NCBI GenBank assembly: GCA_029959195.1
Contig: CP114117.1
Coordinates: forward strand, 248,001 to 312,000
Source of the DNA: Dictyophora rubrovolvata
Lineage: Eukaryota; Basidiomycota; Agaricomycetes; Phallales; Phallaceae
DNA length: 64,000 bases
Direction of reading: 5' to 3'
This document shows, in pieces, positions 10,005-57,773 of this stretch; positions within the stretch are counted from its first letter, which is position 1; every line of letters starts with the position of its first letter. Position numbers and translations under genes: made by a program. Below the pieces are notes generated by a model. The model made no database searches and was not told the DNA's origin. It saw only the letters and a program-made list of their open reading frames with translations.

Positions 10005-13000
10005 TTATTTAGTCATGGCAGCATATAGCTTATCCAACTCCTCCTGGTCAAGCTTCGATCTCACACGAAGGAAAAACTTTTCCAAGTCCAATTTGGAAAA
10101 CACAAGGGGTTTCCATAGTTGCACAAGCACGGACAAGTTGTAAAGAACTGTGAACAGGGGTATTTTTGGGTTCACAGACTTGAGGAGATCCATTAGGATG
10201 GGATATATGTATATTCCTGCCTTGTGGATACTGTGATAATTCCCTAAGTTTTGGAAACATTTTGAGAGATGGGATATGGTGTCTGTCAATGGGTCATTCA
10301 AGAGGAATGTGCATAAATGTTGGCAGTTCTGTGGGACGAGCAACAGCGCAAACATGATGGGGGGTGTGGAACCTGAGAGAATTGAACCGGGATCATCTCG
10401 TGAATACCATTGATATATGAGAGAGAGGTCATGGTGTTCCATAAAATAAAAGTATATAGCCATGTCAGTGTCCATTGAAATTGAAATTAAATTCCAAACC
10501 CTGTCCAGACACACTACTGCCATAAACCTGACATGGTCTGTCATAGACTCACTCCAGAATGCATTCGCACATTGAAGAAGGCAAAGTGCTGCTGGGGTGA
10601 GATATGTGGATTATGACAATGAAGCCAGTTGTAAAATTCATGAAACAGACTTGACAAGGACTCTTGCCTCTGTCTTTTGTCATCAATGAGTGGTTGGTCG
10701 GAGGTGAGGTTGCAATAGACGGAGAGAAGGAGGAGATAACGTGTTTTGAAGGTCTTGTCCAGGGAATAATCAGGACTGCAACGGTGGAAATAAAAGAACA
10801 GGTAGTCAAATTTCCACCATCCCCGTTCCTTGTTGATATCCCTGAAGGATACGACACCTGCGTTACGTATGGTATTGCAAGTAGGATCAGATTTCCATTC
10901 AAATTGAATGCGATGTTCATGGATGAGTATGTGTGCAGCCATTGTAGCATTTCTTGGTGCTCCTTTCAAGATATGATGCCACATGATCAGAGGAACTTGA
11001 AGCTTGAAACTGTCGTTGATGGCATCATCTAGGATTTGGTCATACACACGATATATTACATTATGGCAAATACAAGAATAGCTTTCTCCTTCTTCCAATT
11101 GACTTTCTACCACGTCAGGGATAGATCGGAGTAAAGCCCAGTTTTCGTTCCCCCCAACATGGAGATCCAGACACAAACCATAATGCAAATCCACGGCATT
11201 TGTTTCACTGATATCCAATGTCTGCGAGAGATCCTGATGAATATCGATTCCGAATCGCTGCCCGGTGATAATTGGATGCACAGCTACATACTATGCAATA
11301 ATCTGATGAACACTCCTGTTTGGAGAAGTCTCATAAAGCCAATTGAGCGCCTCGAAATCGAGGAAAGCCGCATTTTTGACAGCTTTCTTTATATTTTCTT
11401 CTCTCCATCTTGTGAATTTAGGAAACTCCTTGGTGAATATGGTGGGTTGGAGTGTTTGAAAACCACATCCAATGAGGTGAACTAACTCCAGAATCAAAAA
11501 CAATCTGTGTCAGAAGAGGCCATGGATAGAGCGAAGGAGACACTGAATAAAATCGTGACCTTGAAAATTTATTCTGCTCCAAACAGCCTGAAAACCCTTA
11601 TCTAAAATCGCACTAATCCAACGGAGACTTTCTTGCAGAACAAAAAAGAGAATCCCAATGTAGATCGTTAACAAAGTTATATACGGACATTCCGGATATC
11701 GAATGGGCAATATCACAGAAATAAAATATAAGGTATAGGTGATGCCTGTGATAATGACAATCATCCAGGCAATGCGAATGTCCAACAGAAACAATAGTAT
11801 GATGATGCCTGTGAGGAACATGCTGACAGCAAGGTGGAGGAGGATAGGGAGGAGATCGACGATGGCTCCAACTTTCCACAATTCAAAGCCTTTGAACCAC
11901 AGCTGCCTGGCTCTCACTCTTTCATTTGCTGTTCTAGTAATAGAAGACAGATAATAGTACAGCCACTGTTTGGCGAGAACGGCAAATAGCACAGTGGATA
12001 ATGCAATCGCTAAACTAGTAAACCACAGACCATTTACCAAAAATGCATTTGTCGACAGTATGAATTGCGAAGTAGGCGTCAATGTCAAATTTGGGATGTT
12101 ATTTATTGACATCCCAGTAGATTGTGCTCGTAGTATTTGGGCTATTTCAAATAATAAGGATGCAGAGACTTGAGTATTATCTTTCTGAAGACTCTGAGAA
12201 GCTTGTGATATGAATGTTGTTATAATGCCAGAAAAGAGACCAGCCTGACAAAAAAATAAGCTTCAGCATTATGAATACAAACAAAAATTTTGCCTACGAA
12301 AACCAGGAGGACATCTGCAGTCTCTTTCCACCCTTCTACTCTCTCACGATGTAACAATCCGAAGATAATAGCTAAATGTCGTAGCTATATGTACAATCGG
12401 AAAAACTACGAAGATATTTTGTTTGAGGCCATCTAGTCTCCGTGGAGCAGGTCCTGGTGCTGATTTCGTAAGGAGGAGGGTGGGGGAATAATATGATATT
12501 TAGTGAGTGTGTGTGCATCGATATAAAACCAACAACAACAAAAAAATGATGATCCTAAGATCGTGTGTGTGTGAGGGGGACGATAAATGTGAGTTGTGAT
12601 AAAATGGTGAGTCAATACGCCGTCGATAATACAGCGATGATAATCTGTTTTAAAGTTAGTAAGGCTTCAACGACAATACAAATCGTTGAGTTTATACTCC
12701 GAGGCCTCACTCAGAGTAATCCAAAGAAATAGACATGAGCGTAGAAATAGACTAGAGACGAAACTTGACTTGAACTTGACTTAAACTGAACTAAACTTGA
12801 GACAACCGTTCCGGTAGATTGCTGCTGTTACAATTATTTACATGCAGTATATATACCATTTGGAAATATAAAGGAAAGCAGAATGATCACTCATCATTCG
12901 CCATGATAACAAAAGGAAACAAAAAGAGAACAAAGAAACAAAAGAAAACAGAGAAAACGATGGAGGATACAATTACAGAAAAAGGGGAATCGCATATGTG

Positions 13001-13220
13001 GTTAGGGGGAATAGGAGAAATATGTTGAAACAAAAGAGAAACAAAAGAGAAACAAAAGAGAAACAAAAAGAGATCAAAAGAAAACAATGAAACCGGATTC
13101 CCAGCATAGCTTTACCAAAATCACCATCTGGCACTTCTCGCGCTACCTCTTACCCAAAACTATAATCTTACCATCCCAAACTTCTTACTGATCTGGTTCT
13201 TGTTGACGAGATCTTCTTCT

Positions 13221-13763
13221 TCATGGCTGTGGCACAATAATAATGGCTATGGCAACGCTTAACAATACCAGATCTTGAACGAGATTGGATTGGAGATCGG
13301 AATAGGAAGGGAGGGTTTGATTTCCAACAGAGTAGTCGGGAGGGGATGGGATGGCAGATAGGGGTGCGTCTATGAATAAGAATTGAGTATAACTTTGAAA
13401 TTGATGATGAAAGACCAGTCTCCAGATTGATTCTTCTTGACGATTTGTTGAAAGGAACTCGACAAACTCATACGATTCGTCCATGACATTGACGTTGGTT
13501 CGTTCATACAGGGTTAAAGCTCGTGGATATCCTATCTCCAGATCGTCATAAGGAATAGTAATCTCCATTAGTGGCTGTGGAGTAATTGGAAGCATTGTGG
13601 AGGGGTCGACATCAATTTCAGAAACAAGAGTATTGTAAACGCAAAGTCGTGAGAGGAAATTAGGGTTGGGTCCGAATCTGAGAGAAGAACGATATTCAAA
13701 AGGGAAGAAAGGGAGTTGAAAAAGGGGAATAGGGGAAGTAGGAGTATCGTTATTGTCCGACAT
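13221..13763 (-). CDS. ORF B of the two-ORF unit (180 aa), unknown
   Basis: Starts MSDNNDTPTSPIPLFQ and ends in a hydrophobic stretch, LVLLSVAIAIIIVPQP, that could be a C-terminal membrane anchor. The middle (LCVYNTLVSEIDVD, then IPYDDLEIGYPRALTLYE, then ESIWRLVFHHQFQ and FLFIDAPL) has the same order of features as ORF A: a short strand, a D/E-rich turn, a hydrophobic block, then a SYRIWL/SIWRLV-like strand. The two look like old duplicates, a judgement by eye. The copy at 56,371-56,949 is broken, with about two breaks. No known family was recognised. It lies within an LTR-like fossil. Confidence 0.5.
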   Translation of the reverse strand: MSDNNDTPTSPIPLFQLPFFPFEYRSSLRFGPNPNFLSRLCVYNTLVSEIDVDPSTMLPITPQPLMEITIPYDDLEIGYPRALTLYERTNVNVMDESYEFVEFLSTNRQEESIWRLVFHHQFQSYTQFLFIDAPLSAIPSPPDYSVGNQTLPSYSDLQSNLVQDLVLLSVAIAIIIVPQP

Positions 13764-13868
13764 GATAATATGAGTTAACCAAAATTTTTAAGTGCTAATG
13801 AAATGTCCAAAAAGAAAGAAGGAGATGAAATACAAATCTAATCGCTTATCCTAATCAAGCCTTTTGTC

Positions 13869-14501
13869 CTAATTTCGTCCAAGAAGGTTTGAGCAAACGC
13901 GTCGGATCTTTTGGAAGGATCGTTTGGATGGAGAAGAGGGGAGAGATATTGGTTCTGGCGAATGGGGTGAAAAACGAGACATTTGAGGATCTACAGGAAC
14001 AAGATTGGCTGGTCTATATGGGCTATGTTTTTGCGTTTTTATGTTTTTCATGACAACCCAACGACTTGGCACATCTAGAACCAGGAATGTAAATTCAAAC
14101 CCTTCTTGTGTCACTAACCAAATCCGATATGAGTCTTTAACGGCTGATTTGGGTGTAGAATAAATGTTGATAATTGTAAACCAGTCTAATCGTTCCTCGA
14201 TATAAACCTTTTCTCCAAACATGAGACCGGGGTGAACCAAATCCGAACTTCTGCATTGACGAATAATAAGAGGTGGAGGGAACTTCAGGAGGTACGTTTC
14301 TTCGTCGATGTCGAGACTCGCATATTGGGAACTATAGATATAAAGAGTCGTATGCAGATCCAAATCGTACTTCCTTGGACTGGAAGGTGAAAAACGAAAA
14401 GGTGATATAGATTCATCGTCAGAGGGGGGTAATGACTCGGTGGGAGATGCTGGAATGGGCAAAGAGATTGATGATGTATAGTGAAATGAAAATGCGGCCA
14501 T
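13869..14501 (-). CDS. ORF A of the two-ORF unit (210 aa), unknown
   Basis: Starts MAAFSFHYTSSISLPIP and has a Ser/Pro-rich first third (SPTESLPPSDDES). The central region is probably globular (LYIYSSQYASLDIDEETYL, LMFGEKVYIEERLDWFTI, SYRIWLVTQEGFEFTFLVLD). The tail is basic and Ser-rich (SPSKRSFQKIRRVCSNLLGR). The copy at 55,633-56,265 has exactly the same length and is also open, with about 16 of 210 residues changed. Keeping the frame in both copies is notable for sequence inside a mobile element. Function unknown; no catalytic motif recognised. Confidence 0.55.
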   Translation of the reverse strand: MAAFSFHYTSSISLPIPASPTESLPPSDDESISPFRFSPSSPRKYDLDLHTTLYIYSSQYASLDIDEETYLLKFPPPLIIRQCRSSDLVHPGLMFGEKVYIEERLDWFTIINIYSTPKSAVKDSYRIWLVTQEGFEFTFLVLDVPSRWVVMKNIKTQKHSPYRPANLVPVDPQMSRFSPHSPEPISLPSSPSKRSFQKIRRVCSNLLGRN

Positions 14502-14684
14502 TTTTTTTTTTTTTTTGTAAGGGTTTTGATTTCGAGAGGCTGTGGTGTATCGGTTAAGTTTTTGGTAGTTCGACACTCCGCTTTGAACCAAAAATCAGAA
14601 TGTTTCCTTATTAGGAAGATTTTGGTGTGCGACAACGATCAAACGACTCAGCTTCATCAAGGTAAGTCAACCAAACACGAGCGT

Positions 14685-15143
14685 TGTCAGGGTACGCTAG
14701 CGTCGTCCCCTTATTTTTCTACATTTATCTTCGGTTCTGGTCTATTTTATTTATTTCCATATTTCTCGTATTCTATCCCATCTCTTGCATTTCCCTCTCC
14801 TTCCGTATTCCCATTTTTCCTCCAATGGGCGCTGAGCGCCTGTTCTCATCAGAGCCATGGCCTAGGCCCCAGCTAAAAGTCCAGGACTGGCGCATATCCG
14901 CGCCCAGTCCATGAACCGAAGGCTGTGTGTGGCCTTCGCTGATTTTCATAGTATATAGTTAGTAGCCCTAGAGGAGGGATCCCTAAGTTTGTTCTCTTAG
15001 GATCCCCTCCCTCTAGGTGAGTTAGTATTATTCCTAGAATATATTTTGCTTAGGATCCCCTCCCTCTAGGTGAGTTAGTATTATTCCTAGAATATATTTT
15101 GCTTAGGATCCCCTCCCTCTAGTCTGAGAGAGTAGCCCTGACA
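14685..15143 (+). mobile_element. Solo LTR of the 6.1-kb Gypsy family (copy 2)
   Basis: 459 bp with ends TGTCAGGG...CCCTGACA. Flanks AGCGT (14,680-14,684) and AGCAT (15,144-15,148) are a 5-bp duplication with one mismatch. It is about 53 bp longer than its relatives because a block ending in GGATCCCCTCCCTCTAG is tandemly doubled at about 15,015-15,120. It lies in the first conserved exon of the DUF6535 gene, separate from the 2.3-kb unit. Confidence 0.88.
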
Positions 15144-17686: not shown

Positions 17687-17698
17687 ACCATTTTTTAG

Positions 17699-23129: not shown

Positions 23130-23789
23130 CAGTAGCTCCGCTTCTAGTGAACATCCCTATAGCCAGCACCAGGCACCACCAGGCACCAGCTACCTGGCTA
23201 CTAATAGCCATTGGCTACGTCATGTACTACCTAAATTTAATAGTGACCAGTAGTCACCGATGTCTAATAATAAATTTTATTGGAACGGCTTGTCAAAACC
23301 AGTGGCTATCATTAGATTTTAATGGAGTCTTATCCTGCAATTCCACGGAAAGTCTGCATATAAGTAACTATCCCTATCTTGTTTTCCAACCCTAATTTTG
23401 ATTATGTTGTAGATACTTTCCGAACCCTCTACACTAAAATTTCTGTGGTTGGTGAGGGCGTTGTACATACTTAATACACCTTTGCTTATGATGGGTAGTT
23501 TTAATGTGTTTTTGGTACATAAATTATTTTTTCATCCATTGCCAATAACACTTGACATAGTTCTGGAGTCATGTCCATGTCTGCCATTGGCTCCAGAGTG
23601 AAGCATTCAAGTCAGCAAGATCTCAAAATTAGATCCAGTACTACTAGTAGCACCCAGTGGATGTCACTGGATTCGACTCGCCGTGCAAGACCGTACCAAT
23701 AGTTCAAGGCCGAAGTGTAATGTATGTCACTAGTGCCCATTATTGGATGCCAGTGGACAGTGGGACGTTCACTAGAAGCCATCATACTC
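23130..23789 (+). mobile_element. 660-bp hAT-like non-autonomous element, copy 1
   Basis: Starts CAGTAGCTCCGCTTCTAG and ends CTAGAAGCCATCATACTC; the inner inverted repeat is GCTTCTAGTGAAC. An 8-bp duplication GAGCTCTG lies on both sides (23,122-23,129 and 23,790-23,797), as for hAT. A copy of exactly the same length lies inverted at 46,212-46,871. No coding capacity was found. Confidence 0.87.
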
Positions 23790-25980: not shown

Positions 25981-26087
25981 CTCAAGCCTTTTCTTTTTCC
26001 TGTACAAGTGATTTGTTGCACCCAACGATATATTTTGAGATTACAAAAAAAAAACACTCGGTAAACGCAAATAATAATAACTAGATC

Positions 26088-31050: not shown

Positions 31051-31600
31051 AGAGGATACCAGGGTTGGGGGTAACGGAGCAGAGTAAACGTGGAATGGGG
31101 TTTCTGAGTTGAAAGTGGTAGTGCGTTCTTCATTATAAATTATGGGCCCAGTCGGTTCGTTTGACCAGTCCAGAGTTGGGACAGCCGTGGCAATTTAGGA
31201 CGTGATCGAGGGAACGGACACTTGAGTGTGGACCACCATTCAAGTTCTTCGTCCTGACAATCGAGACCGGACCAGCTCTGACCTAGCGGGTCACTGGCGG
31301 ATGCTTTCGCGGGCTTTACACTGTAATATACGTCAATCTCGCCTGGAGTACAACTGAGCGATGACAAAGACATATCACAATCTAGCCAGCTTTTAAATGC
31401 ATCGTGGCAAACAGGCTGACTCGACGTGATATACGCATTTTGTCAATATGGAACTTGAGAATTACCGTTCGTTTACAACGTCAGGAGTATATATATGAGG
31501 CGAAATCCGGTTGTGGTCCCTAACTTGTGATTAATTGATGGATACTTGGAGGAAGGAGCCCTTCAGTTCTGATTTTCTTGAATGGTTTCCAGGACGTCCT
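31051..31600. repeat. Upstream region of the F-box remnant, duplicated at 38,807-39,290
   Basis: No gene. The two segments share long stretches (ATGGGCCCAGTCGGTTCG, CGGGCTTTACACTGTAATAT), part of the block duplication. Confidence 0.7.
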
Positions 31601-31940: not shown

Positions 31941-31979
31941 CTACACATTTATTTGTTAATTCACGAATACAACGGATCT

Positions 31980-38806: not shown

Positions 38807-39290
38807 AGGGGGTACTAGGGTTGGGGGTAACGGAGCAGAGCAAAGATGGAATGGGGTTTCTGAGTTGAAAGTGGTAGTGAGTTCTTCGTTATAAATTATG
38901 GGCCCAGTCGGTTCGTTTGACTAATCCGGAGTTGGGACAACCATGGGAATTTAGGACGTGGTCGAGGAAACGGACACTTGAGTGTGGACCACCCTTCAAG
39001 TTCTTCGTCCTGACAATCGAGATCTGACCGGCCCGAACCTAGCGGGTCAACCGGTCACTGGTGTATGCTTTCGCGGGCTTTACACTGTAATATACGTCAA
39101 TCTCACCTGAAATACAACTGAGCGATGACAAATACATATCGCAATCTAGCCAGCTTTCAAACGCATGGTGGTAGACAGGCTGGCTCCACATGATATACGC
39201 GTTTTGTCAATATGGAACTTGTGTATCGAAGGAAATTACCGTCAGTTTACAATGTCAAGAGCATGTGAGTCGAAACCGGTTGTGATCCTA
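38807..39290. repeat. Upstream region of the F-box gene, duplicated at 31,051-31,600
   Basis: No gene. It should hold the F-box promoter. It is the second copy of the segment described at 31,051-31,600. Confidence 0.65.
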
Positions 39291-39299
39291 AACCGTGAT

Positions 39300-39590
39300 T
39301 AGTTGATGGAGGGACCACTCCTGACGCGCACACTCGTCCTAACTCTGAATCACAATTAGCTGATATCAGCATTATCACCTGCAGAATCCGAACGATGACA
39401 AGTAAGCAGTTTGTCTCTTCGAGCATCTCAGCTCAACACCTAATCGATGCCTATACAGATACAAAAAGCGAATAAAGCACCTTGGCGCACGACGGATATC
39501 TTTGGCAATCACGCTCATGCCTCCTAACCTTGAAAAGTTGAAGCTCGCCAAAATTCTCAATCTCGCAATCATTTCCTATTGATCAAACTA
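39300..39590 (+). pseudogene. UBL-family remnant (copy H)
   Basis: Nearly identical to copy F: CTGCAGAATCCGAACGATGA marks the acceptor, then the SKQFVSSSISAQH-type exon and stops. It lies about 80 bp beyond the P450 stop and is convergent with that gene. From about 39,370 to 39,770 identity with 31,740-32,130 is very high, so this part of the block duplication is young or recently homogenised. Confidence 0.55.
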
Positions 39591-39667
39591 CACATTTATT
39601 TGTTAATTCACGAATACAACGGATCTGACAGATTTATGAAAACTTATATCGGTCCTTTAATTACGAA

Positions 39668-41826
39668 TCAATTCAGAAGTTTCTGAGCATCTGGTCGTGC
39701 ATCAATTCGACATTTAAAATCTCGGGGGCGTCTAAAGATAAAAGGATGAAACCATTTATATTGTGTAACAATGAACCAAATTACCTACGCAACAATCCCC
39801 GGGACAAACTCATGATTTTCATCGATGCCAGATAGCGGTTCATCTTCGAGCACGAAGATATTTGCGACATGCAAAACAGTTGCAACCATGATACTGAGAG
39901 AAGTTTCTGCCAATGCTTTGCCTGGACATACGCTAAGAATTGAAACGGAGACTTTTTGAGACTAGTAATCCAAAAAAAAATGTAGGAATAGCCATACCGT
40001 CTTCCAGAACCGAACGCAAAGTCTGGTTTCAGCTTAGCACTTCCATCCAGAAATCTCTCGGGTCTGAATTTGTGCGTATCGGGCCCGAACTCCTTGTCTG
40101 AGCGGAGGAGAAGCCTGGTTTTATTTACAGCATAAGATCATAACTAAATAAATATTCAATGTAAATTTACCAGGAGTTTCCAAAACAGATAGTTCCTTTA
40201 GGTATGAAATATCCATTTATCACATCGTCTTCTTTTAACTGATGCGGTACTCCTATTGGAGCAGCTGGATGCCACCGAAGTGATTCATTGCAGAGTGCAT
40301 TAACGTAGGGAAGATTTGGAATATCAGAAAACGAGGGCAAGTTATCTCTGCCGATCACTCTATCCAGCTCTTCTTGAGCTTTTTTTTGCACATCTGGATA
40401 AAGTGCCATCGCTAGGAAAAACAAACGGATTTGAGTTTCCAGCTAATATTAGTATAAAATTAATATATGTCCTATTAAAATAAGAGATATTTACCGTGTC
40501 GATTCCAGCGAAATAAATATTCACTGCCGTTCCACGGATCACCTCTTCAGCACCATCGGAGGGATTGGGATTATTGGCGAGATCTTCCAAGCAGTCCGAG
40601 ACAAATGAAGGTTTATAGTTTCCTTGTCTCTATAATATTTTAAAACAAAAGTAGAACAAAATATCATGATACACTCACGAAAGATTTCTTAGCATATTCA
40701 TATGGTATGTTTAGCATGTCTTCAAAGCTTTCGTTCAATTCCTTGGCCGCTTTCGGAAACTCCAAGCCGGGGAACCATGATGGGAGATGCTTCACTATTC
40801 ATATCACATAGACATTAATCATAGACAGATTCGTGGTATGTTGCATACTTAATGGAATGCTATCAACCGTATATGCTCCAGGAACCAACGCTTGAGTGAA
40901 GTAATTCATGAAACGTTCTGCAAATTCCAGATAAGGATCGTTTTCGGGTAGAACGTCAATACCGTATGCAAACTTCAAGTCCTTTAATGATGTTATTAGG
41001 GTTTGGTTTGATTGATTCGTACCTGCATGATAAACCCTCCGATTACGTATCTAGTAAGTTCCAAGTCATTTACAGGCTCAGGAATGAGACGCTGCACAAA
41101 AGACCTTCAGCCAGTGAATAATCAGAGTTATGTAATGAGAACTTGAAAGAGGTTTTTATTGAAACTGTGAAACCTAGCGTTTGCCTCCAAAATCGGATGG
41201 TATGAAATGAGGCTCTTAAATGACAATGCATTGTTCAGTATCGCCCGGTGCCGAGTCCATTATTCACCATAATTCATTGCTACGAGAGCGCTTTCACCAA
41301 CGTTCGTCCTAAAATCGCGAAATGTTTGCCAATTAACCCGTGTTTCATTGAAAGTGGACAACCTACAGGTCATGCATCATACTCGTTTTGGGTCTGTCCG
41401 AATAGATTGCACCTTTTCTATTGAATAATGCCCATTCCATATCTGCTGAGCTGATAAGAAGAATCGACTGGCCCAAAATATTCAGATAGACAAGATCGCC
41501 TGTATATGGATGAATGAATAAATAATAGGCAAGAGCAATATTTCAGGCACTGTATTTCTTAGCCCATTTCTCGTACACTGTATATTCTAAAATTCCAGAC
41601 GGGAAATCTCTCAGATTACCCCATATAAGATGTCCTGGAGGACCCGGTGGTAGCTGAAGGCCTATATACGTGATTGAATACGGGCAGTAAGCACAACGGG
41701 TCATGCGCTAGGAGACGTTATGCTTATGCACGAACCTCTTGGAACACGTACCGTGGTATAGTACAGGAAAGTAGATAGGGATAAAGCTATAGAAGCAATG
41801 GCGATGTCAGAGAGTGATAAGGTCAT
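39668..41826 (-). CDS. Cytochrome P450 monooxygenase, microsomal type
   Basis: A heme monooxygenase expected in the ER membrane. The start at 41826 gives an anchor, MTLSLSDIAIASIALSLSTF. After an intron comes LQLPPGPPGHLIWGNLRDFP, the proline hinge. Further exons give LILISSADMEWALFNRKGAIY-like sequence, RHRAILNNALSFKSLISYHP, QRLIPEPVNDLELTRYVIGG and LEFAERFMNYFTQALVPGAY. The I-helix is GTAVNIYFAGIDT near 40,500, the ExxR motif is in NALCNESLRWHPAAP near 40,300, and the PERF motif is RPERF near 40,060. The heme loop FGSGRR/VCPGKALAE is split by an intron around 39,990-39,930, with the invariant Cys present. The end is RPRDFKCRIDARPDAQKLLN. Introns are short. No break was seen. The CYP family and substrate are not determinable. 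A 3' duplicate lies at 31,980-32,459. Confidence 0.8.
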
Positions 41827-42817: not shown

Positions 42818-43324
42818 GATCTTCCGAGTCTTCCTTACATCAGTGCACTCTGCAATGGACATTACGATGGCATCCAGTTGCTCTCGTTGCATTGCCATAC
42901 ATTGAGATTTAAAAGTTTGAGTATGGCGGGACAATTGCCACCAGGCGATGCATTTGTCGCAAAATCCGAGAGTCGCAGATCAGGCAAGGGTCCAAATCTG
43001 ACCAAGCCTGACAGTCCTGATGGTGACTGACCGACTGGGTGCATGTGCATTTTACCCTCCTGACATCTGTCTCATAGTCCATCACAGCAACATCGACATA
43101 CCCACCTGCCGACACTCCGATCACGATTGCCCAGACCAAATGGCCACGCCTCCACAGCAAACTTAGGTTGCCCAACGGGCTCACGAAGAAGGAGGCTTTC
43201 GCGCGCCACTCTATGGCCAAGTTATTTAGCTGGACTGCAGCGTTCCGGGGCACCCCTCAGCACTACCAGATCATCGCACATCATGGAATCAACATGCTCT
43301 TCCTCGGCATCCCCGACAGGTTGC

Positions 43325-43730
43325 TGTCAGGGTACGCTAGCGTCGTCCCCTTATTTTTCTACATTTATCTTCGGTTCTGGTCTATTTTATTTATTTCCAT
43401 ATTTCTTGTATTCTATCCCATCTCTTGCATTTCTCTCTCCTTCCATATTCCCATTTTTCCTCCAACAGGCGCTGAGTGCCCGTTCTCATCAGAGCCATGG
43501 CCTAGGCCCTGGCTAAAAGTCCGGGACTGGTGCATGTCCGCACCCAGTCCACAAACCGAAGGCCGCGTGTGGCCTTCACTGTTTCTCATAGTATATAGTT
43601 AGTAGCCCTAGAGGAGGGATCCCTAAGTTTGTTCTCTTAGGATCCCCTCCCTCTAGGTGAGTTAGTATTATTCCTAGAATATATTTTGCTTAGGATCCCC
43701 TCCCTCTAGTCTGAGAGAGTAGCCCTGACA
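43325..43730 (+). mobile_element. Solo LTR of the 6.1-kb Gypsy family (copy 3)
   Basis: 406 bp, ends TGTCAGGG...CCCTGACA, perfect 5-bp duplication GTTGC (43,320-43,324 and 43,731-43,735). Inserted in the unidentified coding-like sequence. Confidence 0.92.
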
Positions 43731-45447: not shown

Positions 45448-45853
45448 TGTCAGGGTATGCTAGTATCGTCCCCTTATTTTTCTACATTTATCTTCAGTTC
45501 TGGTCTATTTTATTTATTTCCATATTTCTTGTATTCTATCCCATCTCTTGCATTTCTCTCTCCTTCCATATTCCCATTTTTCCCCCAATGGGCGCTGAGC
45601 GCCCGTTCTCATCAGAGCCATGGCCTAGGCCCCGGCTAAAGGTCCGGGACTGGCGCATATCCGCACCCAGTCCATGAACTGAAGGCCGCATGTGGCCTTC
45701 GCCGTTTTTCATAGTATATAGTTAGTAGCCCTAGAGGAGGGATCCCTAAGTTTGTTCTCTTAGGATCCCCTCCCTCTAGGTGAGTTAGTATTATTCCTAG
45801 AATATATCTTGCTTAGGATCCCCTCCCTCTAGTCTGAGAGAGTAGCCCTGACA
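45448..45853 (+). mobile_element. Solo LTR of the 6.1-kb Gypsy family (copy 4)
   Basis: 406 bp, ends TGTCAGGG...CCCTGACA, perfect 5-bp duplication GTATG (45,443-45,447 and 45,854-45,858). Same orientation as copy 3, about 2.1 kb away, in the same target sequence. Confidence 0.92.
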
Positions 45854-46211: not shown

Positions 46212-46871
46212 GAGTATGATGGCTTCTAGTGAACGTCCCACTGTCCACTGGCATCCAATAATGGGTACTAGTGACACACATTACACTTTGGCCTTGAACT
46301 ATTGGTATGGTCTTGCACGGCGAGTCGAATCCAGTGACATCCACTGAGTGCTACTAGTAGTACTGGATCTAATTTTGAGATCTTGCTGACTTGAATACTT
46401 CACTCTGGAGCCAATGGCAGACATGGACATGACTCCAGAACCATGTCAAGTATTATTGGCAATGAATGAAAAAATAATTTATATACCAAAAACACATTAA
46501 AACTACCCGTCATAAGCAAAGGTGTATTAAGTATGTACAACACCCTCACCAACTACAGAAATTTTAGTGTAGAGGGTTCGGAAAGCATCTACAACATAAT
46601 CAAAATTAGGGTTGGAAAACAAGATAGGGATAGTTACTTATATGCAGACTTTCCGTGGAATTGCAGGATAAGACTCCATTAAAATCTAATGATAGCCACT
46701 GGTTTTGACAAGCCGTTCCAATAAAATTTATTATTAGACATCAGTGACTACCGGTCACTATTAAATTTAGGTAGTACATGACGTAGCCGATAGCTATTAG
46801 TAGCTAGGTAGCTGGTGTCTGGTAGTGCCTGGTGCCAGCTATAGGGATGTTCACTAGAAGCGGAGCTACTG
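46212..46871 (-). mobile_element. 660-bp hAT-like non-autonomous element, copy 2
   Basis: Inverted relative to copy 1 (23,130-23,789) and exactly the same length. Flanks GTCTTTGT (46,204-46,211) and GTCTTCGT (46,872-46,879) are an 8-bp duplication with one mismatch. Its sequence is well over 90% identical to copy 1 by eye. Confidence 0.87.
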
Positions 46872-47062
46872 GTCTTCGTCTACAGCTGACCAGCATTCTA
46901 TGAGGGGTTGAGGAAGCTAGTGTAAAAGAAACACGTATTAAGTGATGGGTAAACTTCCAAGCTTAGTTGTTTAGAGTAATATAGTTCTATTAGCTTGTGG
47001 AGCAGTTCAAACCTTTTTAATCATTCTGAATACAGGATAGACATGTATATGAATACATCCTT

Positions 47063-48465: not shown

Positions 48466-48469
48466 ATCT

Positions 48470-48875
48470 TGTCAGGGCTACTCTCTCAGACTAGAGGGAG
48501 GGGATCCTAAGCAAGATATATTCTAGGAATAATACTAACTCACCTAGAGGGAGGGGATCCTAAGAGAACAAACTTAGGGATCCCTCCTCTAGGGCTACTA
48601 ACTATATACTATGAAAAACGGCGAAGACCACACATGGCCTTCGGTTCATGGACTGGGCGCGGATACGTGCCAGTCCCGGACTTTTAGCCGGGGCCTAGGC
48701 CATGGCTCTAATGAGAATGGGTGCTCAGCGCCCGTTGGAGGAAAAATGGGAATATGGAAGGAGAGGGAAATGCAAGAGATGGGATAGAATACGAGAAATA
48801 TGGAAATAAATAAAATAGACCAGAACCAAAGATAAATGTAGAAAAATAAGGGGACGACACTAGTGTACCCTGACA
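48470..48875 (-). repeat. 3' LTR of the Gypsy element
   Basis: 406 bp, TGTCAGGG...CCCTGACA. It is the same repeat as the solo LTRs at 5,880, 14,685, 43,325 and 45,448. It is joined directly to the purine tract of the element on its right and to APH-like sequence on its left. Confidence 0.9.
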
Positions 48876-51800
48876 CCACCCCCCCCTTCAACCAGGCGTC
48901 GACCCGACACCTGCAGTCTCTCCCAAGGTCAGATTGGCCGTGGGCAGAACAACAGACCATTTATCACACGTGGTGCATTAGGATGCTCTTGATAGAATTT
49001 ACCCAAGAGATCGGGGGCTGCAAGGTCCTTCTCTGGTACTCATTGATCATGCTCCGGGCCATAACCTTCCCAATGAACCTTGAATTTGAGTTTGCTCCAT
49101 TGGACTCGACTATCCAAGACCTCTTCCACAACATAATGTTCTCCATCATCGCAAATCTCGGGAGGAGGAGGGATTCAAGAACGATGACCTGGGATGGTGT
49201 CTTCTGGTCTTGGACGTAACTTCACGACATGAAAGACTGGGTGAAGCCGTGACATCGATTTGGGTAGGAGTAGGCGATATGAATGAGAGCCGACTCTTGC
49301 TGCTATAGGAAAAGGCCCTAGGAAGCAATGGGACAACTTCGCTGAAGGCCTGGTAGTGCGAATGTCACTGGGATCGAGGTAGACCTTGTCACCAATCTTA
49401 TATTCGGGAGTTGGGAGTTGTTTACAATCATAGTACTTGGCCATGTCGTCCTTGGCCTTGATGATAGCAGCTCTGGCTTCTTCGATAGTCGATGACATAC
49501 GGTCTTTGAACTTGTTGACAGACTCGATTTTTGATTTGGGGATATGAGGTTCAAAGCCCATATGTGGTTGACGGCCCATGTGGTTGTTATATGCAAACTC
49601 AGCCATGGGAAGCAGCCTATCCCAGTCATCCTGTCATTCCGAGGTGAAGAGTTGGAGGTACTGTTCGACTTCTGCATTAACCCTCTCAGTCTGACCATCA
49701 GTTTGGGGATGGTAGGCTGTGGACGTGGCGAGTCGAATGCCAAGGAGTCGAGAGAGTTCCTTCGTGAAGTGTGCCACAAACTGTGGCCCCCTGTCGGAAA
49801 TGATCTTGTCAGGGAGGCCATGCAGCTTCCACACATGTTGCAGGTATAGACTCGCAAGACCAGATGCGTCGATAGTGGTGAACGTGGGAATGAAATGAAC
49901 TCGTTTGGTTAGCGAATCTACCACAGAGAGGATCGCATCATACCCATTAGATTCTGGGAGTTCAATGATAAAGTCGACGGATATGAACTCCCAAGGACGG
50001 TGTGGTATCTCGGTGGGGTGCAACTTGCCAAAGGGTGTGTGGCGAGCTATTTTTGTACGCAAGCAGAGATCGCAGGCTTTGACGTATCGTTGGATGTACC
50101 GAGACACACCCGGCCACCAAAAGGTTCGAGAGACCAGCTCCAGAGTTTTGAAATGACCAGGGTGACCACCGACTTTGGTATCATAATGACGTGCAATGAT
50201 TTCTCGTTGTAGATCCTCGACATTGGGAATGTAGATCTTACCACGGTAGTAGAGAACATCCTGATCTTCGGACCATTCACTGGTATGCACCGAATGACCA
50301 CTGAGAGCTCGAAGAGAAGTGACGGCTTTGGAGACACTATCCTCATGCTTGCCTTCTCAATTGGCCTTGCGAATCTGACATAGGAAGTCTTCCTCTTCTC
50401 CTCGGATACGGAATGTTTGCAGGGCATTGATTGCAAACATCTCGGGTCGGATAAGGGTGATCCCTTGGTTGTCATCCTTTCCCGATCTGTGATCTGCACG
50501 TCAAGAGAGGCTGTCGGGCTTCCCCATTGACTTACCCGGGATGTGCTGGAGGGTGAAGTCGAATCGAGCAAGATAGACTGACCACCGAGCTTGTCAACGA
50601 TTGAGGTTGCGAGCGGTCATAAAGTACTCCAAGTTCTTATGGTCAGTGCAAATGTCGATGGGGTGACTTGCGCCTTCGAGAAAGTGTCGCCATTCTTCCA
50701 GGGCTCAAATTATTGCCAGCATTTCCTTGTCATGAATCTCATAGTTGTGTTCTACGGGGCTCAGGGCTTTCGAGAAGAACGCAACTGGGTGCCACTTACT
50801 GTCCTTGTCCGATAACTGCGAGAGCCGCGCCAGAAGCAAAGTCAGAGCTGTCTGCCTCAACTTTGTAGGGTTTAGCAGGGTCTGGGATGAGCAAGATGGG
50901 AGCTGAAGTGATTGAGAGCTTGAGTGCATCGAAGGCTTGCTGACAATTGTCGGACCAGACGAACAAGGTGTCCTTTTTGGTCAGACTGAACATTGGAAGC
51001 ACAATATGAGAGAAGTCTTTGATGAAATGACGATAGAAGTTAGCAAAACCGAGGAAGGATTGAACTTCAGTGACGTTTCTCAGGACAGGCCAGTCCCTAA
51101 CACCCAAGACCTTCGCAGGGTCCATTTTGACTGTATTCTCGGATATGACCATCCCGAGGTACTCAATCTTGGTCTTGCAGAACTCGCATTTCTCTGCCTT
51201 AAGGTATAGCTGGTGCTCACGAAGCCGTTTGAGTACACGTCGAGTAATACGATGATGTTGTTCCAAAACTCGTGTATAGATGAGGATATCGTCAATATAC
51301 ACAGCGACGACACCTTCTGAGATCATGTCCTCAAAGATTTTGTTCATCATTGTCTGGAAGGTGGCTGGACTGTTAGTAAGGCTGAAAAACATCACCAAAG
51401 GTTCAAAAAGGCCTCTATTAGTACGAAACACGGCCTTCCACTCGTCGCCTTCCTTTATCCACACATTGTTGTAGCCCCATCAAACATCGAGCTTCGTGAA
51501 GTAGCGGGCACCCTGCAACTTATTGACGAGTTCCGGGATAAGGGGCAACGAATAACGGTTCTTGATCATCATCGCATTCAGAGCCCGGTAATCCTGAATG
51601 AGATGAAGGGAACCATCCTTCTTTTTGATAAAGAAGACCGGTGAGGCCATTGGTGACTTCGAGAGTCGGATCCGTCCTGATTTGAGGTTTTCCTCTAGAA
51701 ACATGTCCAACTCGGCCTGTTCCTTCGGTGACAGCAGGTAGATCTTACTGGATTTGGGCTCTGAACCAGAGACGAGTTCTATTGGGTGATCCCATTTCTT

Positions 51801-54197
51801 TGACATTGGTAGCGAATCAAAGGATTCTTTGGAAAAGATGTCGTCAAAGTCATAGAATTGTTCAGGCACGATATCGCGAAAACCCTTGGGGGCTGGAGCA
51901 TCTGAGTTCTTGGCATGAGCTTGAGCAAGTCTTTGTGAAATGGTCTCGGTTGCGCCAACGCGATGGAACTTGGGTCCAGTGTCAACCATCGAAATACCAA
52001 AGAGTCAATCGCCATCCTCAAGCTGGAGCTCATCTTCCATGTCTGCCAGATCAGGCATGTCAGGATCTTCAGCCTCGGTGTTGTCAAGTGTCACATCTTC
52101 AGACGTTCGGATCTGTCGAAAGGAACGTTTAGTGCGGTGACCCAAAGGCCAGCTGGGCGCACAGGAACAACATTGGGGACTACAATGCGTCAGTTCTACC
52201 TCTCCAGCAGTATAGTCAATCACCGGGTTGTGGGCCTTGAACCAGGGTAGCCCCAGTAATACGGGATATTTTCCAAGTGTGGTAACGGCAAATAGTACGC
52301 ATTCAGAGTGGGACCAATACCTCATAACCAGATCGACCACATGTGTGATAGCACCGGCCTGGTTGGGTGTACCATCAACATTGAATACAGGAATAGGTTT
52401 CGGGAGTTTGACAGTCGGGAGTTGATGTCTCTCAACGAACTCGCAGTCCAGGAACATACCACTAGCACCCATATCAAGCATGGCTTTGCTGGTGATCAAA
52501 TCTCCTGTGTCAGTACTCTGGAGCTCTACTGAGATTTCAAGTTTCTGAGTACTGGCGGTGGCTGCGAGTTGATATTCAGAGGGTAGTGACTTCCACTTCA
52601 AAGTCGAGAGTCGTGGAGGTGGCAGCGTAGAAGAAGGTGTAGGGAGAGGGGGGTTTTTAGGAGATATAGCAGGGGTAATAGGATTCGAATTACTATCATC
52701 ATTTTGTTCACGATCTATGTACAAAACGTCGAATCTATTGAATGTCGGCAACGAGGGTGTATCCTTCACTCGTCGCCTTCCTGAAAATCCTCTGTTGCTA
52801 CCGATGCAGGAGTCTCTTCTTCCTCTGTTGGTCCAGGCCCTGCATGACTCTGTGCTTCTGCAATGTCCTTTTGGGCAAGGAGCAGTTCGACAAGGTTGTC
52901 AATCTCATCTGTGTTCACGAAACAAATGTCATGTGTGCGAGGACAATCACGCATGAGATGCCCAGCTTGTCCACAACAGTAACATCTAGTGGATTCTGCG
53001 GTCATCCGTCAACATGTGGCATCAACATCCATCAGGTCATGACGTTGTTGAGGAGGTTGAACCAGAATCGACGGCCTAGGCGGAGCAGCAGCAAACCCAG
53101 GAGCAACTGGCCTAGGAGGTGGGAATGGAGGTGGTTGGTACTGGGGGATAGTGGGTCTTAGAGGCAGGAAGGGTGTCAGTCTAGGATGAGACATAGGAGC
53201 CATCATTAAGGAATTAGGAGTCGACAGGGTTGGGAGTTGTTGATGTCAAGTAGCACTGAAGACTTCATTTACTCTTCTATCTTGGTCAAAACGCGCGCAG
53301 CCTTGACCCAGCCTTCAAAATCTTTGTATGTGGGTCGGCTCTGCATGGTAGCAACCTTGGACTGAATTGTCGGGTCTAATCCTTGTCGAAAGTGTGTTGT
53401 GATGGTGAAGCCATCCATGAAGCCAGCATGTTCTATGAGGACATTGAAGGAGTCCACATAATCCTCTACAGTTCGACCTCTTTGAGCATATCTGCTGGAT
53501 AGGAGGAGATTGAAAGCATCATCACGTTCGGTTAAGGGCAGAAATTCCTCTTCGAACTTGAGTCAGAATTCTCCCCATGTCACGAAAGGAATGACACCTG
53601 CGAGGTACTTCTGTAGCAGGCTATTAGCAAAAATGTGGGCGCGGCTGTCGTTCATATACGATAGTGTCCAAATGATCATTTCTTGGTCGGTCGCGAAATC
53701 CTTGCTACATGCGCTCATATAGATCTGGACAGAGTTCCAGAACATGCGTCCTTTGTTTCTATCACCATCAAAGGACTGAGGCACTGTGGGACGGGTATTA
53801 CAAGAATTTCATGAATCTTGTGTGGAAGATGGAGCCGATGCTCGGACAGGGGGAACATTGGTGGGTTGAGGGTTTACTGGGGGTTCTGACGGAGAGTCAG
53901 ATGGGAGTTGAGGTTGAAGAAACAGTTCGAGACGAGATAGGAGTTGTTCGAGTTGAGTGTTGCACATAAGGAAATTTTGTTCCATAGCTGTGAGGTGTTG
54001 CTCTAGATTCAGAGTAGCCTGGTCGGGTTCCATGATAGTAAAAATAGCCTAGGTGCACAGTAAGAAGGATGGGAAGGGTCAAGTTATAGACGGAGCACGA
54101 GGAAGGACTCGAGATGGAACGAGTCGTTGTTGAGGACAATTTTCCAAAGGTGAATGTTGATAGAAATGACCAGTCCTGGGGTAGAAGTTTGTTCTAC

Positions 54198-54603
54198 TGT
54201 CAGGGCTACTCTCTCAGACTAGAGGGAGGGGATCCTAAGCAAGATATATTCTAGGAATAATACTAACTCACCTAGAGGGAGGGGATCCTAAGAGAACAAA
54301 CTTAGGGATCCCTCCTCTAGGGCTACTAACTATATACTATGAAAAACAGCGAAGACCACACACAGCCTTCGGTTCATGGACTGGGCGCGGATACGTGCCA
54401 GTCCCAGACTTTTAGCCAGGGCCTAGGCCATGGCTCTGATGAGAACGGGCGCTCAGCACCCGTTGGAGGAAAAATGGGAATATGGAAGGAGAGGGAAATG
54501 CAAGAGATGGGATAGAATACAAGAAATATGGAAATAAATAAAATAGACCAGAACTGAAGATAAATGTAGAAAAATAAGGGGACAATGCTAGCATACCCTG
54601 ACA
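54198..54603 (-). repeat. 5' LTR of the Gypsy element
   Basis: 406 bp. Just inside the element lies a short perfect hairpin, GTAGAA-GTTTG-TTCTAC (54,181-54,197), where a tRNA-complementary primer site would be expected. No match to the usual initiator-Met tRNA tail was seen there. Confidence 0.88.
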
Positions 54604-54933
54604 GAAAGTAAGGAAGATATCTAGAAGGAACTTTTAGATAGAAAAAGAGAGTAGAATAGAAGTAGAAAAGAGAAATAAAATTCGCTTTCTGGGGCTCAAA
54701 TGTAGAGAGAAAAAGGGGAAAACTCCGAACTCTTTATTGTAAGAACTAACTAGAGGGTTTATATACAAAACTAAGACTCAGAAGTCCTGGTGTCCAGCAT
54801 AGTCCAACCATTGTTCCAAAAATACCTCACATTTGGCCCTAGAGGTGTCCAGGCTCTGAGCACAATAGAAGACATGTCCCTGTCCAGCCTCCCGGTCTGA
54901 ACTTCCCATGCTAGAGGTATTTCTATCCCAACA
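54604..54933 (-). mobile_element. Left-over part of another LTR retrotransposon (LTR 54,701-54,933)
   Basis: On the minus strand a 233-bp LTR starts TGTTGGGATAGAAATACC, contains GTATATAAACCC and AATAAAG, and ends TTTCTCTCTACA. It is followed by TTTGAGCCCCAGAAAGCG, a leader typical of Gypsy elements, which runs to 54,604 and is cut off there by the 6.1-kb element. Only this end of the older element is present in the window. Confidence 0.7.
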
Positions 54934-55509
54934 ACCTTTCTATAGCCAAAAATGTGTCCTTCTTGTCCCTAAAAACTCTTTAAAATCAAAAAAAAGAAAG
55001 AAAGACAAGTTTAGAAGAGATACAGCTGCATATAGGCTGTTTCCCTTCAATAAGACTAATTATACTAACTACAAATAATAGGAAAAATACATAAGAACAA
55101 ATAGTATTATTTTAATTATAATTTTTCTGAAAAAGAAACATATTTAAAGTTGAGATAATCCAAGTCTTGCTCTCAGACCCTGTGGGAACCCCACACCGCT
55201 CAAGCTTGCATATTACTCCTGCTCATGCCAGATTATGACGTAGGGACCCTGCTTTAGTTTTTTCAGTCAGCAATGTCTCAGTCCATAGCCATGAATAAAA
55301 ACTCAGATAGCAAACTCGAGTGAAATCCATCCTTATCATGGTGCTATATGAGAGCGAGTGCTCAAGTGCTCAAGCACTCAACTCTTTCAGAGCTTTTTGA
55401 CTTGCTTCCTTTGACTCTTCCATTCAAAGTATCTGGCTCAACACTTCCAAGCTGAAGACACCAGGTCTAGTTCACTCGTCAAGGTGTGGATTGAACCGTA
55501 ACTGACTGT
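54934..55509. other. No supported gene
   Basis: About 575 bp between the LTR fragment and the right two-ORF unit. Short A-rich runs; nothing recognised. Confidence 0.45.
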
Positions 55510-55632
55510 TGTCGCGCACCAAAATCTTCCTAATAAGGAAACGTTCCAATTTTTGGTTCAAAGCGGAGTTTCAAACTACCAAAAACTTAACCGATACACC
55601 ACAGCCTCTCGAAATCAAAACCCTTATGAAAA

Positions 55633-56265
55633 ATGGCCGCATTTTCATTTCACTATATATCATCAATCTCTTTGCCCATTCCAGCATCTCCCACCGAGTC
55701 ATTACCCCCCTCTGACGATGAATCTATATCACCTTTTTGTTTTTCGCCTTCCAGTCCAAGGACATACAATTTGGATCTGCATACGACTCTTTATATCTAT
55801 AGTTCCCAATATGCGAGTCTCGACATCGACGAAGAAATGTACCTCCCGAAGTTCCCTCCACCTCTTATTATTCGTCAATGCAGAAGTTCAGATTTGGTTC
55901 ACCCCGGTCTCATGTTTGGAGAAAAGGTTTATATCAAGGAACAATTAGACTGGTTTACAATTATCAACGTTTATTCTACACCCGAATCAGCCGTTAAAGA
56001 CTCATATCAGATTTGGTTAGTGACACAAGAAGGGTTCGAATTTACATTCCTGGTTCTAGATGTGCCAAGTCGTTGGGTTGTCATGAAAAACATAAAAACG
56101 CAAAAACATAGCCCATATAGACCAGCCAATCTTGTTCCTGTAGATCCTCAAAGGTCTTGTTTTTCACCCCATTCACCAGAACCAATATCTCTCCCCTCTT
56201 CTCCATCCAAACGATCCTTCCGAAAGATCCGACACATTTGCTCAAACCTTCTTGGACGAAATTAG
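55633..56265 (+). CDS. ORF A of the two-ORF unit, right copy (210 aa)
   Basis: Same length and start (MAAFSFHYISSISLPIP) as the left-copy ORF A, and open throughout. About 16 residue changes against the left copy, many of the kind that C-to-T changes produce (R to C, R to Q, R to H, T to I or M). The central block SYQIWLVTQEGFEFTFLVLD and the basic tail KRSFRKIRHICSNLLGR are kept. Unknown family, inside an LTR-like fossil. Confidence 0.5.
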   Translation: MAAFSFHYISSISLPIPASPTESLPPSDDESISPFCFSPSSPRTYNLDLHTTLYIYSSQYASLDIDEEMYLPKFPPPLIIRQCRSSDLVHPGLMFGEKVYIKEQLDWFTIINVYSTPESAVKDSYQIWLVTQEGFEFTFLVLDVPSRWVVMKNIKTQKHSPYRPANLVPVDPQRSCFSPHSPEPISLPSSPSKRSFRKIRHICSNLLGRN

Positions 56266-56370
56266 GACAAAAGGCTTGATTAGGATAAGTGATTAGATTT
56301 GTATTTCATCTCCTTCTTTCTTTTTGGACATTTCATTAGCACTTAAAAATTTTGGTTAACTCATATCATC

Positions 56371-56949
56371 ATGTCGGACAATAATGATACTCCTACTTCC
56401 CCTATTCCCCTTTTTCAACTCCCTTTCTTCCCTTTTGAATATCGTTCTTCTCTCAGATTCGGACCCAACCCTAATTTCCTCTCATGACTTCGTGTTTACA
56501 ATACTCTTGTTTCTGAAATTGATGTCGACCCCTCCACAATGCTTCCGATTACTCCACAGCCACTAATGGAGATTACTATTCCTTATGACGATCTGGAGAT
56601 AGGATATCCACGAGCTTTAACCCTGTACGAATGAACCAACATCAATGTCATGGACGAATCGTATGAGTTTGTCGAGTTCCTTTCAACAAATCGTCAAGAA
56701 GAATCAATCTGGAGACTGGTCTTTCATCATCAATTTCGAAGTTATACTCAATTCTTATTCATAGACACACCCCTATCTGCCATCCCATCCCCTCCTGACT
56801 ACTCTGTTGGAAATCAAACCCTCCCTTCCTATTCCAATCTCCAATCCAATCTCGTTCAAGATCTGGTATTGTTAAGCGTTGCCATAGCCATTATTATTAC
56901 GCCACAGCCACGAAGAAGAAGATCTCGTCAACAAGAACCAGATCAGTAA
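56371..56949 (+). pseudogene. ORF B of the two-ORF unit, right copy, broken
   Basis: Counterpart of 13,221-13,763, recognisable from MSDNNDTPTSPIP through ESIWRLVFHHQF to the hydrophobic end, which here runs on into an Arg-rich tail (PRRRRSRQQEPDQ). Broken, about two breaks. Confidence 0.55.
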
Positions 56950-57773
56950 GAAGTTTGGGATGGTAAGATTATAGTTTTGGGTAAGAGGTAGCATGAGAAG
57001 TGCCAGATGGTGATTTTGGTAAAGCTATGCTGGGAATCCGGTTTCATCGTCTTCTTTTGATCTCTTTTTGTTTCTCTTTTGTTTCTCTTTTTGTTTCAAC
57101 ATATTTCTCCTATTCCCCCTAACCACATATGTGATTCCCCTTTTTTTTAATTGTATCCTCCATCATTTTCTCCTTTTTCTTTTGTTCCTTTGTTCTCTTT
57201 TTGTTTCCTTTTGTTATCATAATGAATGATGAGTGATCATTCCGCTTTCCTTTATGTTTCCAAACGGTATAAATACTGCATGTAAATACATGTAACAGCA
57301 GCAATCTACCGGAACGGTTGTCTCAAGTTTAGTTCAGTTTAAGTCAAGTTCAAGTCAAGTTTCGTCTCTAGTCTATTTCTACGCTCACGTCTATTTCTTT
57401 GGATTACTCTGAGTGAGGCCTCGGAGTATAAACTCAATGATTCGTATTGTCGTTGAAGCCTTACTAACTTTAAAACAGATTATCATCGCTGTATTATCGA
57501 CGGCGTATTGACTCACCATTTTATCGCAACTCACGTTTATCGTCCCCCTCACACACACACGATCTTAGGATCATCATTTTTTTGTTGTTGTTGGTTTTAT
57601 ATCAATGCACACACACTCACTAAATATCATATTATTCCCCCACCCTCCTCCTTACGAAATCAGCATCTGGACCCGCTCCACAGAGACTAGACGGCCTCAA
57701 ACAAAATATCTTCGTAGTTTTTCCGATTGTATATATAGCTATGACATTTAGCTATTATCTTCGGATCGTTACA

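Follow-up and report, generated by a model that had tools for sequence, protein, structure and literature searches.

LTRs are ordinarily non-coding, and solo LTRs usually keep only their promoter. Among MMTV-type retroviruses, the sag gene is located largely within U3, and most of its surviving copies are in solo LTRs (490 of 527 contigs; PMC4667437). The subfamilies of crapaud, an LTR retrotransposon with a chromodomain found in Podospora, differ in U3 but share a conserved LTR portion past the TATA box; its full copies, of which 150 were retrieved, are fewer than its solo or fragment LTRs (PMC10787394). In the TRIMs Helenus and Ajax, the LTRs additionally contain a tRNA- or 5S rRNA-like sequence and no protein gene; Helenus was detected in several agaricomycetes, with some families present only as fragments and solo LTRs, and fungal Helenus generates 5-bp duplications (PMC10886601). 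Ginger1, identified only in animals in its report, combines TGTNR ends, terminal inverted repeats of 40–270 bp and a transposase, and its target site duplication is CCGG in 75% and CCGT/ACGG in 24% (PMC2836005). Here we describe a family of 2.3-kb units in the fungus Dictyophora rubrovolvata, which are quite likely LTRs from a divergent family of Ty3/gypsy retrotransposons, almost all of them solo after loss of the interior. By analogy, the closest architecture appears to be that of sag in the MMTV U3, since the units seem from their sequence to carry conserved ORFs inside U3, ahead of the TATA box. Unlike MMTV, however, they have two genes instead of one and would belong to a fungal element of the Ty3/gypsy type, and it is the architecture that is compared, with no homology implied. 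Like the LTRs of Helenus and Ajax, the units carry something extra.

The analysis started from a 64,000-bp stretch of the genome, hereafter the window (GenBank assembly GCA_029959195.1, contig CP114117.1, positions 248,001–312,000 of the forward strand), which contains two units of 95.6% mutual identity. Copy A (12350–14634, minus strand, 2285 bp) and copy B (55510–57773, plus strand, 2264 bp), both read here as solo LTRs of a genome-wide family, with copy A laid out as U3-R-U5, start with TGTCGC and end with GTTACA. Copy A is flanked by an exact 4-bp target duplication, ACGA (14635–14638 and 12346–12349), and copy B by CTGT (55506–55509) and CCGT (57774–57777), the first of which can be read as CCGT changed once, from C to T. 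The size, ends and flanks given for the two units in the sequence-only reading are thus correct, as are the lengths it gives for the open ORFs. ORF A is open over 210 codons in both copies (13869–14501, minus strand, in copy A; 55633–56265, plus strand, in copy B), and only copy A has an open ORF B (13221–13763, minus strand, 180 aa), the corresponding frame in copy B (56371–56949, plus strand) being interrupted by in-frame stops, the first after 38 codons.

Searching the genome (28.2 Mb in 11 contigs) with patterns of the unit ends revealed 108 3′ ends and 76 5′ ends, against 0 for the reversed control patterns, which is far beyond chance. From these ends 56 units spanning 2.25–2.97 kb were paired, and the complete copies inspected have TGT...ACA ends, in agreement with the genome-wide patterns. 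Target duplications were counted in the 47 pairs with both flanks read, the further 9 of the 56 lying outside the count. An exact 4-bp duplication was found in 24 of the 47, all 24 being NCGN; in another 19, as in copy B, the flanks differ by transitions only. The remaining 4 are misfits, among them the unit at the C4 locus described below. At flank positions 2–3, 97 of the 100 3′ ends listed have CG, TG or CA, against a window background of 17%, and the C4 junction is one of the three that do not. Three diverged unit types are likewise found singly, and they share their ends and the nature of their flanks. A fixed host segmental duplication, named beforehand as the finding that would undo the case for a mobile element, is refuted by the 43 of 47 two-sided pairs that possess their own target duplication, either exact or transition-only. 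Separately, transitions seem to erode the CpG sites of the genome that carries the units.

The TGTNR start and the 4-bp CG-centered target are features of Ginger1 (PMC2836005), the target of the units being NCGN, broader than CCGG/CCGT, and the units could in principle be a related cut-and-paste DNA transposon, with its transposase lost or encoded elsewhere. However, comparison of the two unit ends by eye gives 7 matches in the first 11 bases, with no terminal inverted repeat evident beyond, and neither ORF A nor ORF B has a match in Pfam, to a transposase or to any other family. Given also the C4 junction, we hold this origin to be very improbable.

Comparison of 26 copies revealed no indels in ORFs A and B (1176 bp in total), whereas the other 1088 bp of the unit contain all 15 length-variable places, which are spread over various copies. 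If indels were evenly spread, the probability for 14 places all to fall outside the ORFs would be 4e-5, although the sequence outside is richer in low-complexity stretches. Both ORFs recur in the diverged unit types at amino-acid identities of 28%–50%, and codon position 3 is the most different between types and position 2 the least. Genome searches with ORF B gave at least 150 and at least 152 scored matches; among the matches listed is another type, whose identity is about 35% and which has several frames open for about 205 codons. Within type 1, the dN/dS-type check proposed earlier, applied to 24 copies after removal of one of each near-identical pair, yielded a weak excess of synonymous changes (P 0.05–0.31 in the non-CpG classes and 0.20–0.95 in the CpG classes), which is what neutral decay of the inserted copies would give, and the changes in ORF A show no departure from neutral. 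The case for ORFs A and B as real genes rests on the indels and the comparison between types. A duplicated host segment, or a low-complexity LTR whose ORFs happen to be open, would be in line with the stops found in the ORFs of many copies, with the 87% share of transitions among the differences between copies, and with the neutral-like changes of ORF A. Against this stand the independent target duplications, the ORFs kept free of indels, the protein matches between types and the long ORF B-like frames of another type, which together leave such an explanation scarcely credible.

The products of the two ORFs gave nothing better than chance when compared with solved structures and families, and their predicted structures were too poor to use (mean pLDDT of 42 for ORF A and 34 for ORF B). 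ORF A and ORF B show weak mutual similarity and are probably an old duplicate pair. The suggestion that they are ancient duplicates gains weak support from a profile comparison over 42 columns (E 0.0025), for which the reported probability is 12%, and from most of the shuffling tests: the alignment score was reached by 4 of 500 shuffles for A1–B1, 5 for A2–B1, 11 for A1–B3, 1 for A2–B3 and 3 for A3–B1, but by 147 of 500 for A3–B3.

In each copy of the window, both ORFs are followed by a TATA box, TATAAATAC in copy B (57268–57276, plus strand) and the TATA-like TATATATAC in copy A (12847–12855, minus strand). With the start of R estimated from the TATA box, R-U5 would occupy 57295–57773 (plus strand) in copy B and, by the same estimate, 12350–12828 (minus strand) in copy A. 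Types 1 and 2 are 92.9% identical from unit position 1749, just before the TATA box (about 10 bases upstream of it in copy B), to the end at 2264; upstream of this block, they can be aligned only in a stretch of ORF A (70.9%) and a 28-base match. Such retention of R-U5 while U3 diverges is the pattern of the crapaud LTRs, although the latter measure 339–443 bp and no ORF in them is mentioned in the accessible part of the report (PMC10787394). The pattern also bears on a different explanation, in which the single unit is itself mobile: a non-autonomous, LTR-like piece of DNA of 2.3 kb with two genes, inserted by an integrase acting in trans and never possessing an interior. This would agree with the target-like sequence directly after 97 of the 100 listed 3′ ends, with the exact or transition-only duplications in 43 of 47 pairs, with the single occurrence of all three diverged types, and with the failure to find an LTR pair, even at the two best candidate loci. 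Nevertheless, a transcript started at a TATA box that follows both ORFs would exit the unit, and both this and the crapaud-like divergence speak against the explanation. Together with a unit joined to gag and pol at the C4 locus, these points make it distinctly unlikely, and given C4 it is no longer needed to account for the solo units.

The evidence that most directly bears on the units as LTRs comes from this locus (C4, L012 and L013). The unit there ends with ...GTTACA, followed by AAAG and a PBS-like 18-mer, TGGCTGCCCCAGTGAGGC, with no duplication at this site. The complement of the 18-mer ends in CCA, as PBS complements do, and the primer tRNA would accordingly end in GCCTCACTGGGGCAG plus CCA; no such tRNA was found in the loci scanned, a small part of the genome. 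From position 123 of the interior runs a stop-free frame of 755 codons, a putative gag judging by its position and by a zinc knuckle of weak score (E 0.026). It is followed in order by frames for protease, presumably so from its aspartate motif, RT, RNase H and integrase. In Pfam, the RT frame matches RVT_1 and the frame after it matches RT_RNaseH_2, Integrase_H2C2 and rve; the nearest solved relatives of the RNase H–integrase frame are the Ty3 and foamy-virus integrases. Identities to the other gypsies go up to 35%. The element is cut off in the integrase, where it adjoins another inserted unit (500 bp read beyond). The sequence-only reading had found no gag or pol in the units, which holds for both units in the window, where none was seen, but not for the unit at C4. 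One of its two interpretations, the other being a non-autonomous element moved by foreign machinery, was a very long LTR whose ORFs precede the promoter, and the C4 unit, directly preceding a PBS-like site and gag-PR-RT-RH-INT frames, now makes this the favored one, although no LTR pair was found.

This unit-PBS-gag-pol junction, in a truncated element, is the only LTR-gag junction found. No partner 3′ LTR of the C4 element is among the matches listed. Its clade has five other pol loci (one at C6, two at C2 and two at C8). For the C2 copy in L018, matches to ORF A or B over the 3.1 kb that follow its pol match are no better than chance (best E 0.010); at C8, a pol has an ORF B at 67% identity behind it on the same strand. 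The stretch from –10 to –3 ahead of the unit starts nowhere consists of eight purines (0 matches), no 3′ LTR having been recognized among these starts. Same-orientation unit pairs flanking one interior were not found, the two best candidates included. At L029 (C7), two same-strand units 5 kb apart have their own duplications, ATGC/ACGC and CCGG/CCGG, and the interval contains no frame longer than 151 codons and no RT among the matches listed; at L113 (C9:746598/753112), pieces of a type-3 unit lie between the two units and the left one is incomplete. Inverted unit pairs found no support as the ends of composite elements: the two units at C7:1931858 each have their own target duplication (CCGC/CTGC and CCGA/CCGA), and of the inverted pair at C4, one unit is flanked by TCGG/TCGG and the other is the unit read as an LTR. 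Other retrotransposons were rejected as autonomous source or partner. Units insert into chromodomain gypsies (L030 and L032), and the polyprotein close to one of the ORF A frames (L019/L031) belongs to a copia element with identical 219-bp LTRs, inserted in a type-2 unit. The window also holds a gypsy element with 410-bp LTRs (48470–54607), likewise of the Ty3/gypsy type, into whose copies units are often inserted; in contrast to the units, its LTR is short and its solo LTRs have 5-bp duplications with no consistent CG center, and this family was rejected on account of the 5-bp duplications.

Taking the units as LTRs, we propose a putative model for the family. U3, of about 1.76 kb, would carry ORFs A and B; behind it would come the TATA box and some 0.5 kb of R and U5. 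The genomic RNA of a complete element would have the 3′ copy of U3 at its 3′ end, downstream of pol, and A and B could therefore be made as accessory proteins, possibly from spliced or internally started RNAs. By eye, a pyrimidine tract and an AG are present ahead of ORF B. The integrase would cut with a 4-bp stagger at NCGN sites, and recombination between LTRs may afterwards have left the solo units. The expression route, the accessory function and the service of the ORFs to the element are what we infer. A more speculative and rather unlikely extension is that the LTR lineage is a two-gene mobile unit, in which the genes of solo LTRs serve the family in trans, for instance in copy-number control, in escape from silencing or in the choice of CG targets, and in which insertion of single units without an interior is perhaps a regular route of spread.

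In a search of the open-access literature, no matching element was recognized. If the LTR reading is true, this genome contains several lineages of fungal LTRs with two conserved genes, which would represent a second, apparently unrelated, case of the architecture seen in MMTV sag. Its strict CG-centered target also offers a way to study an integrase with an apparent choice of CpG sites. Such a case would open two questions to testing: which kind of selection favors genes located within LTRs, and whether a solo LTR can continue to act through protein.

The window carries two copies of the unit, copy A at 12350-14634 (2285 bp, minus strand; flanks ACGA/ACGA) and copy B at 55510-57773 (2264 bp, plus strand; flanks CTGT/CCGT), which share 95.6% identity and both run TGTCGC...GTTACA. 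The sizes, ends and flanks described in the sequence-only reading are thus borne out, as are an ORF A of 210 codons open in both copies and an ORF B open in copy A only. Searching the genome (28.2 Mb, 11 contigs; the window is C1:248001-312000), as that reading had proposed, revealed many further copies. The 3' end occurs at 108 places (26-base pattern, up to 3 mismatches) and the 5' end at 76 (29-base pattern), each with 0 matches in a reversed control; the ends listed, including 100 of the 108 3' ends, form 56 unit pairs with a spacing of 2.25-2.97 kb. A domain scan of the window also detected a DUF6535 gene, which points to an agaricomycete.

Flanking bases were read at the 100 listed 3' ends and at 58 of the 76 5' ends. 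Positions 2-3 of the flank are CG, TG or CA at 97 and 56 of these, respectively, against a window background of 17%, and CG itself accounts for 54 and 45. Both flanks were read for 47 of the 56 pairs. An exact 4-bp duplication is present in 24 of the 47, with CG in the middle of all 24; in 19 the flanks differ by transitions only, and 4, including a unit on contig C4, do not fit a duplication. The NCGN duplications at separate units indicate that units were inserted singly at NCGN, the CG having often decayed since. Such unit-by-unit insertion, each with its own target duplication, refutes a fixed host segmental duplication, which the sequence-only reading had named as the contrary outcome. 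One unit at locus L030 (C2:2496576, minus) has an intact 5' end, stops at unit position 2150 and adjoins gag-like sequence; its flanks, AATAC and CCGTG, do not form the usual duplication, reflecting either an aberrant insertion or a later deletion.

We propose that the units are probably the LTRs of a divergent Ty3/gypsy family, almost all of them solo. The alternative that single units move by themselves draws on the target sequence lying directly 3' of most units, which points to single-unit insertion, but we consider it unlikely given the C4 unit (2501043-2498790, minus). Here, the 5' flank GCGG is paired with a 3' flank AAAG, followed not by target but by PBS-like TGGCTGCCCCAGTGAGGC and then gag, RT, RNase H and integrase frames. 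The complement of TGGCTGCCCCAGTGAGGC ends in CCA, as does a tRNA. A stop-free 755-codon frame from interior position 123 is assigned to gag on the strength of its location and a weak zinc knuckle (E 0.026); a putative protease frame follows it, ahead of the RT. The RT, RNase H and integrase are distant from those of the other gypsies compared (23%-35% identity over matched parts); among solved structures, Ty3 and foamy-virus integrase come closest to the RNase H-integrase frame. A second unit, inverted and flanked by its own TCGG duplication, interrupts the integrase, the continuation of which is absent from the 500 bp read beyond that unit. Pol of this clade, delimited by a 37% identity cut-off of our own choice, occurs at 6 loci; one such pol, on C8, is followed about 3.6 kb on, on the same strand, by an ORF B at 67% identity. 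The C4 junction of unit, PBS-like sequence and gag-pol thus agrees with the earlier idea of an unusually long LTR; however, it is the one LTR-gag junction found, and no LTR pair around one interior was found, so that the expected unit at both ends of full-length elements was not seen. Eight purines at -10 to -3 before the unit start, sought as a polypurine tract, gave 0 matches. At C6:439880 (plus; locus L117), the sole other listed 3' end of the 100 with AAAG in place of a CG-like target, the PBS-like sequence is absent.

At 48470-54607 (minus) the window also holds a gypsy in which two 410-bp LTRs (TGTCAGGG...CCCTGACA) enclose pol and gag-like frames; further LTR copies of this type lie at 5880-6286, 14685-15143, 43321-43730 and 45448-45853. 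Exact 5-bp duplications flank 3 copies (GTATG, GTTGC and ATATC), a decayed one (AGCGT/AGCAT) flanks the copy at 14685, and the outer flanks of the gypsy itself are mismatched. Since these duplications are of 5 bp with an inconsistent CG centre, whereas those of the units are of 4 bp and CG-centred, the integrase of the units differs from that of this gypsy. Other repeats in the window are a 660-bp inverted repeat (23130-23789 and 46212-46871; 96.5% identity) and direct repeats (30403-32463 and 38162-40120; 89%-92% identity).

Two diverged types have the same kind of ends as the window's type 1: type 2, of 2201 bp in L025 and with a copia-interrupted copy in L019/L031, and type 3, of 2347 bp in L019. 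Among six such units read on both sides (type 2 in L019/L031, L025 and L027; type 3 in L019, L025 and L028), the CCGT duplication of one is exact, and five show transition-only differences. Types 1 and 2 have a block in common (92.9% identity) that starts shortly ahead of the TATA box and runs as far as the 3' end; upstream of it, only part of ORF A (70.9%) and a 28-base match align. Between types 1 and 3, similarity covers part of this block (74.3%) and the initial 18 bases. Similarly, crapaud LTRs are described as having a conserved 3' half and a variable U3, ahead of the TATA box (PMC10787394). In L024, L025 and L028, type-1 units have inserted into type-3 ORF A at one and the same position, in both relative orientations. 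In the copia inside the type-2 unit (L019 ~8185-9765 to L031 1-731, C9), the two 219-bp LTRs are identical and one frame is open for 1437 aa.

Across 26 type-1 copies, including 2 with a truncated 3' end, neither ORF contains an indel, whereas 15 places elsewhere vary in length in various copies, the truncated end left aside. Under even indel spread, 14 such places would all fall outside the ORFs with a chance of ~4e-5, a contrast partly expected from the more abundant low-complexity sequence there. ORF A is open in 16 of the 26 copies, with a length of 208 or 210 codons; ORF B is open over at least 180 codons in 16, one of which lacks the ATG. Two genome searches gave at least 150 and at least 152 matches to ORF B, including a group at ~35% identity to type 1 in which several frames are ~205 codons long; type 2 yielded only partial ORF B matches. 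Selection across copies, which the sequence-only reading had wanted tested, is weakly indicated among the 24 type-1 copies that remain when near-identical pairs are reduced to one member each: for single and shared changes, respectively, the non-CpG synonymous excess has P 0.14 and 0.31 in ORF A and 0.05 and 0.11 in ORF B, and CpG classes give P 0.20 to 0.95. Therefore, type-1 copies look like neutral relics. Between types, codon third positions differ most and second positions fewest, at amino-acid identities of 28%-50% for ORF A and 36% for ORF B (type 1 versus 3), suggesting constraint on the ORFs.

Two inverted unit pairs, in L009 (C7:1931858 minus/1938431 plus) and L012/L013 (C4:2490773 plus/2498790 minus), lie 4-6 kb apart and differ by 1 base of ~2255; other pairs drawn from the 26 copies show at least 0.8% divergence. 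Gene conversion between neighbours is one explanation. Two more inverted pairs, partly read, share 99.4% and 97.5% identity.

The suggestion that ORFs A and B are ancient duplicates fared unevenly. Their similarity is suggestive in blastp (E 0.001 over 46 residues), in profile comparison by E value (0.0025) and in alignments that, for five of the six type combinations tried, outscored almost every shuffle, but the profile probability is 12% and the sixth combination did not do so. Neither product has a match above chance in Pfam, NCBIfam, PHROGs or solved structures, and single-sequence structure models were too poor for use.

In the proposed model, the family would integrate with a 4-bp stagger at CG, and the full element would carry A and B in its 3' LTR, downstream of pol. 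The closest published architecture found is MMTV, with sag in U3, for which 490 of 527 sag-bearing contigs were solo LTRs (PMC4667437). A pyrimidine tract and AG upstream of ORF B, noted by eye, would suit a candidate splice acceptor. A and B would be expressed as putative accessory genes of the full element, with roles, at a guess, in anti-silencing or copy control.
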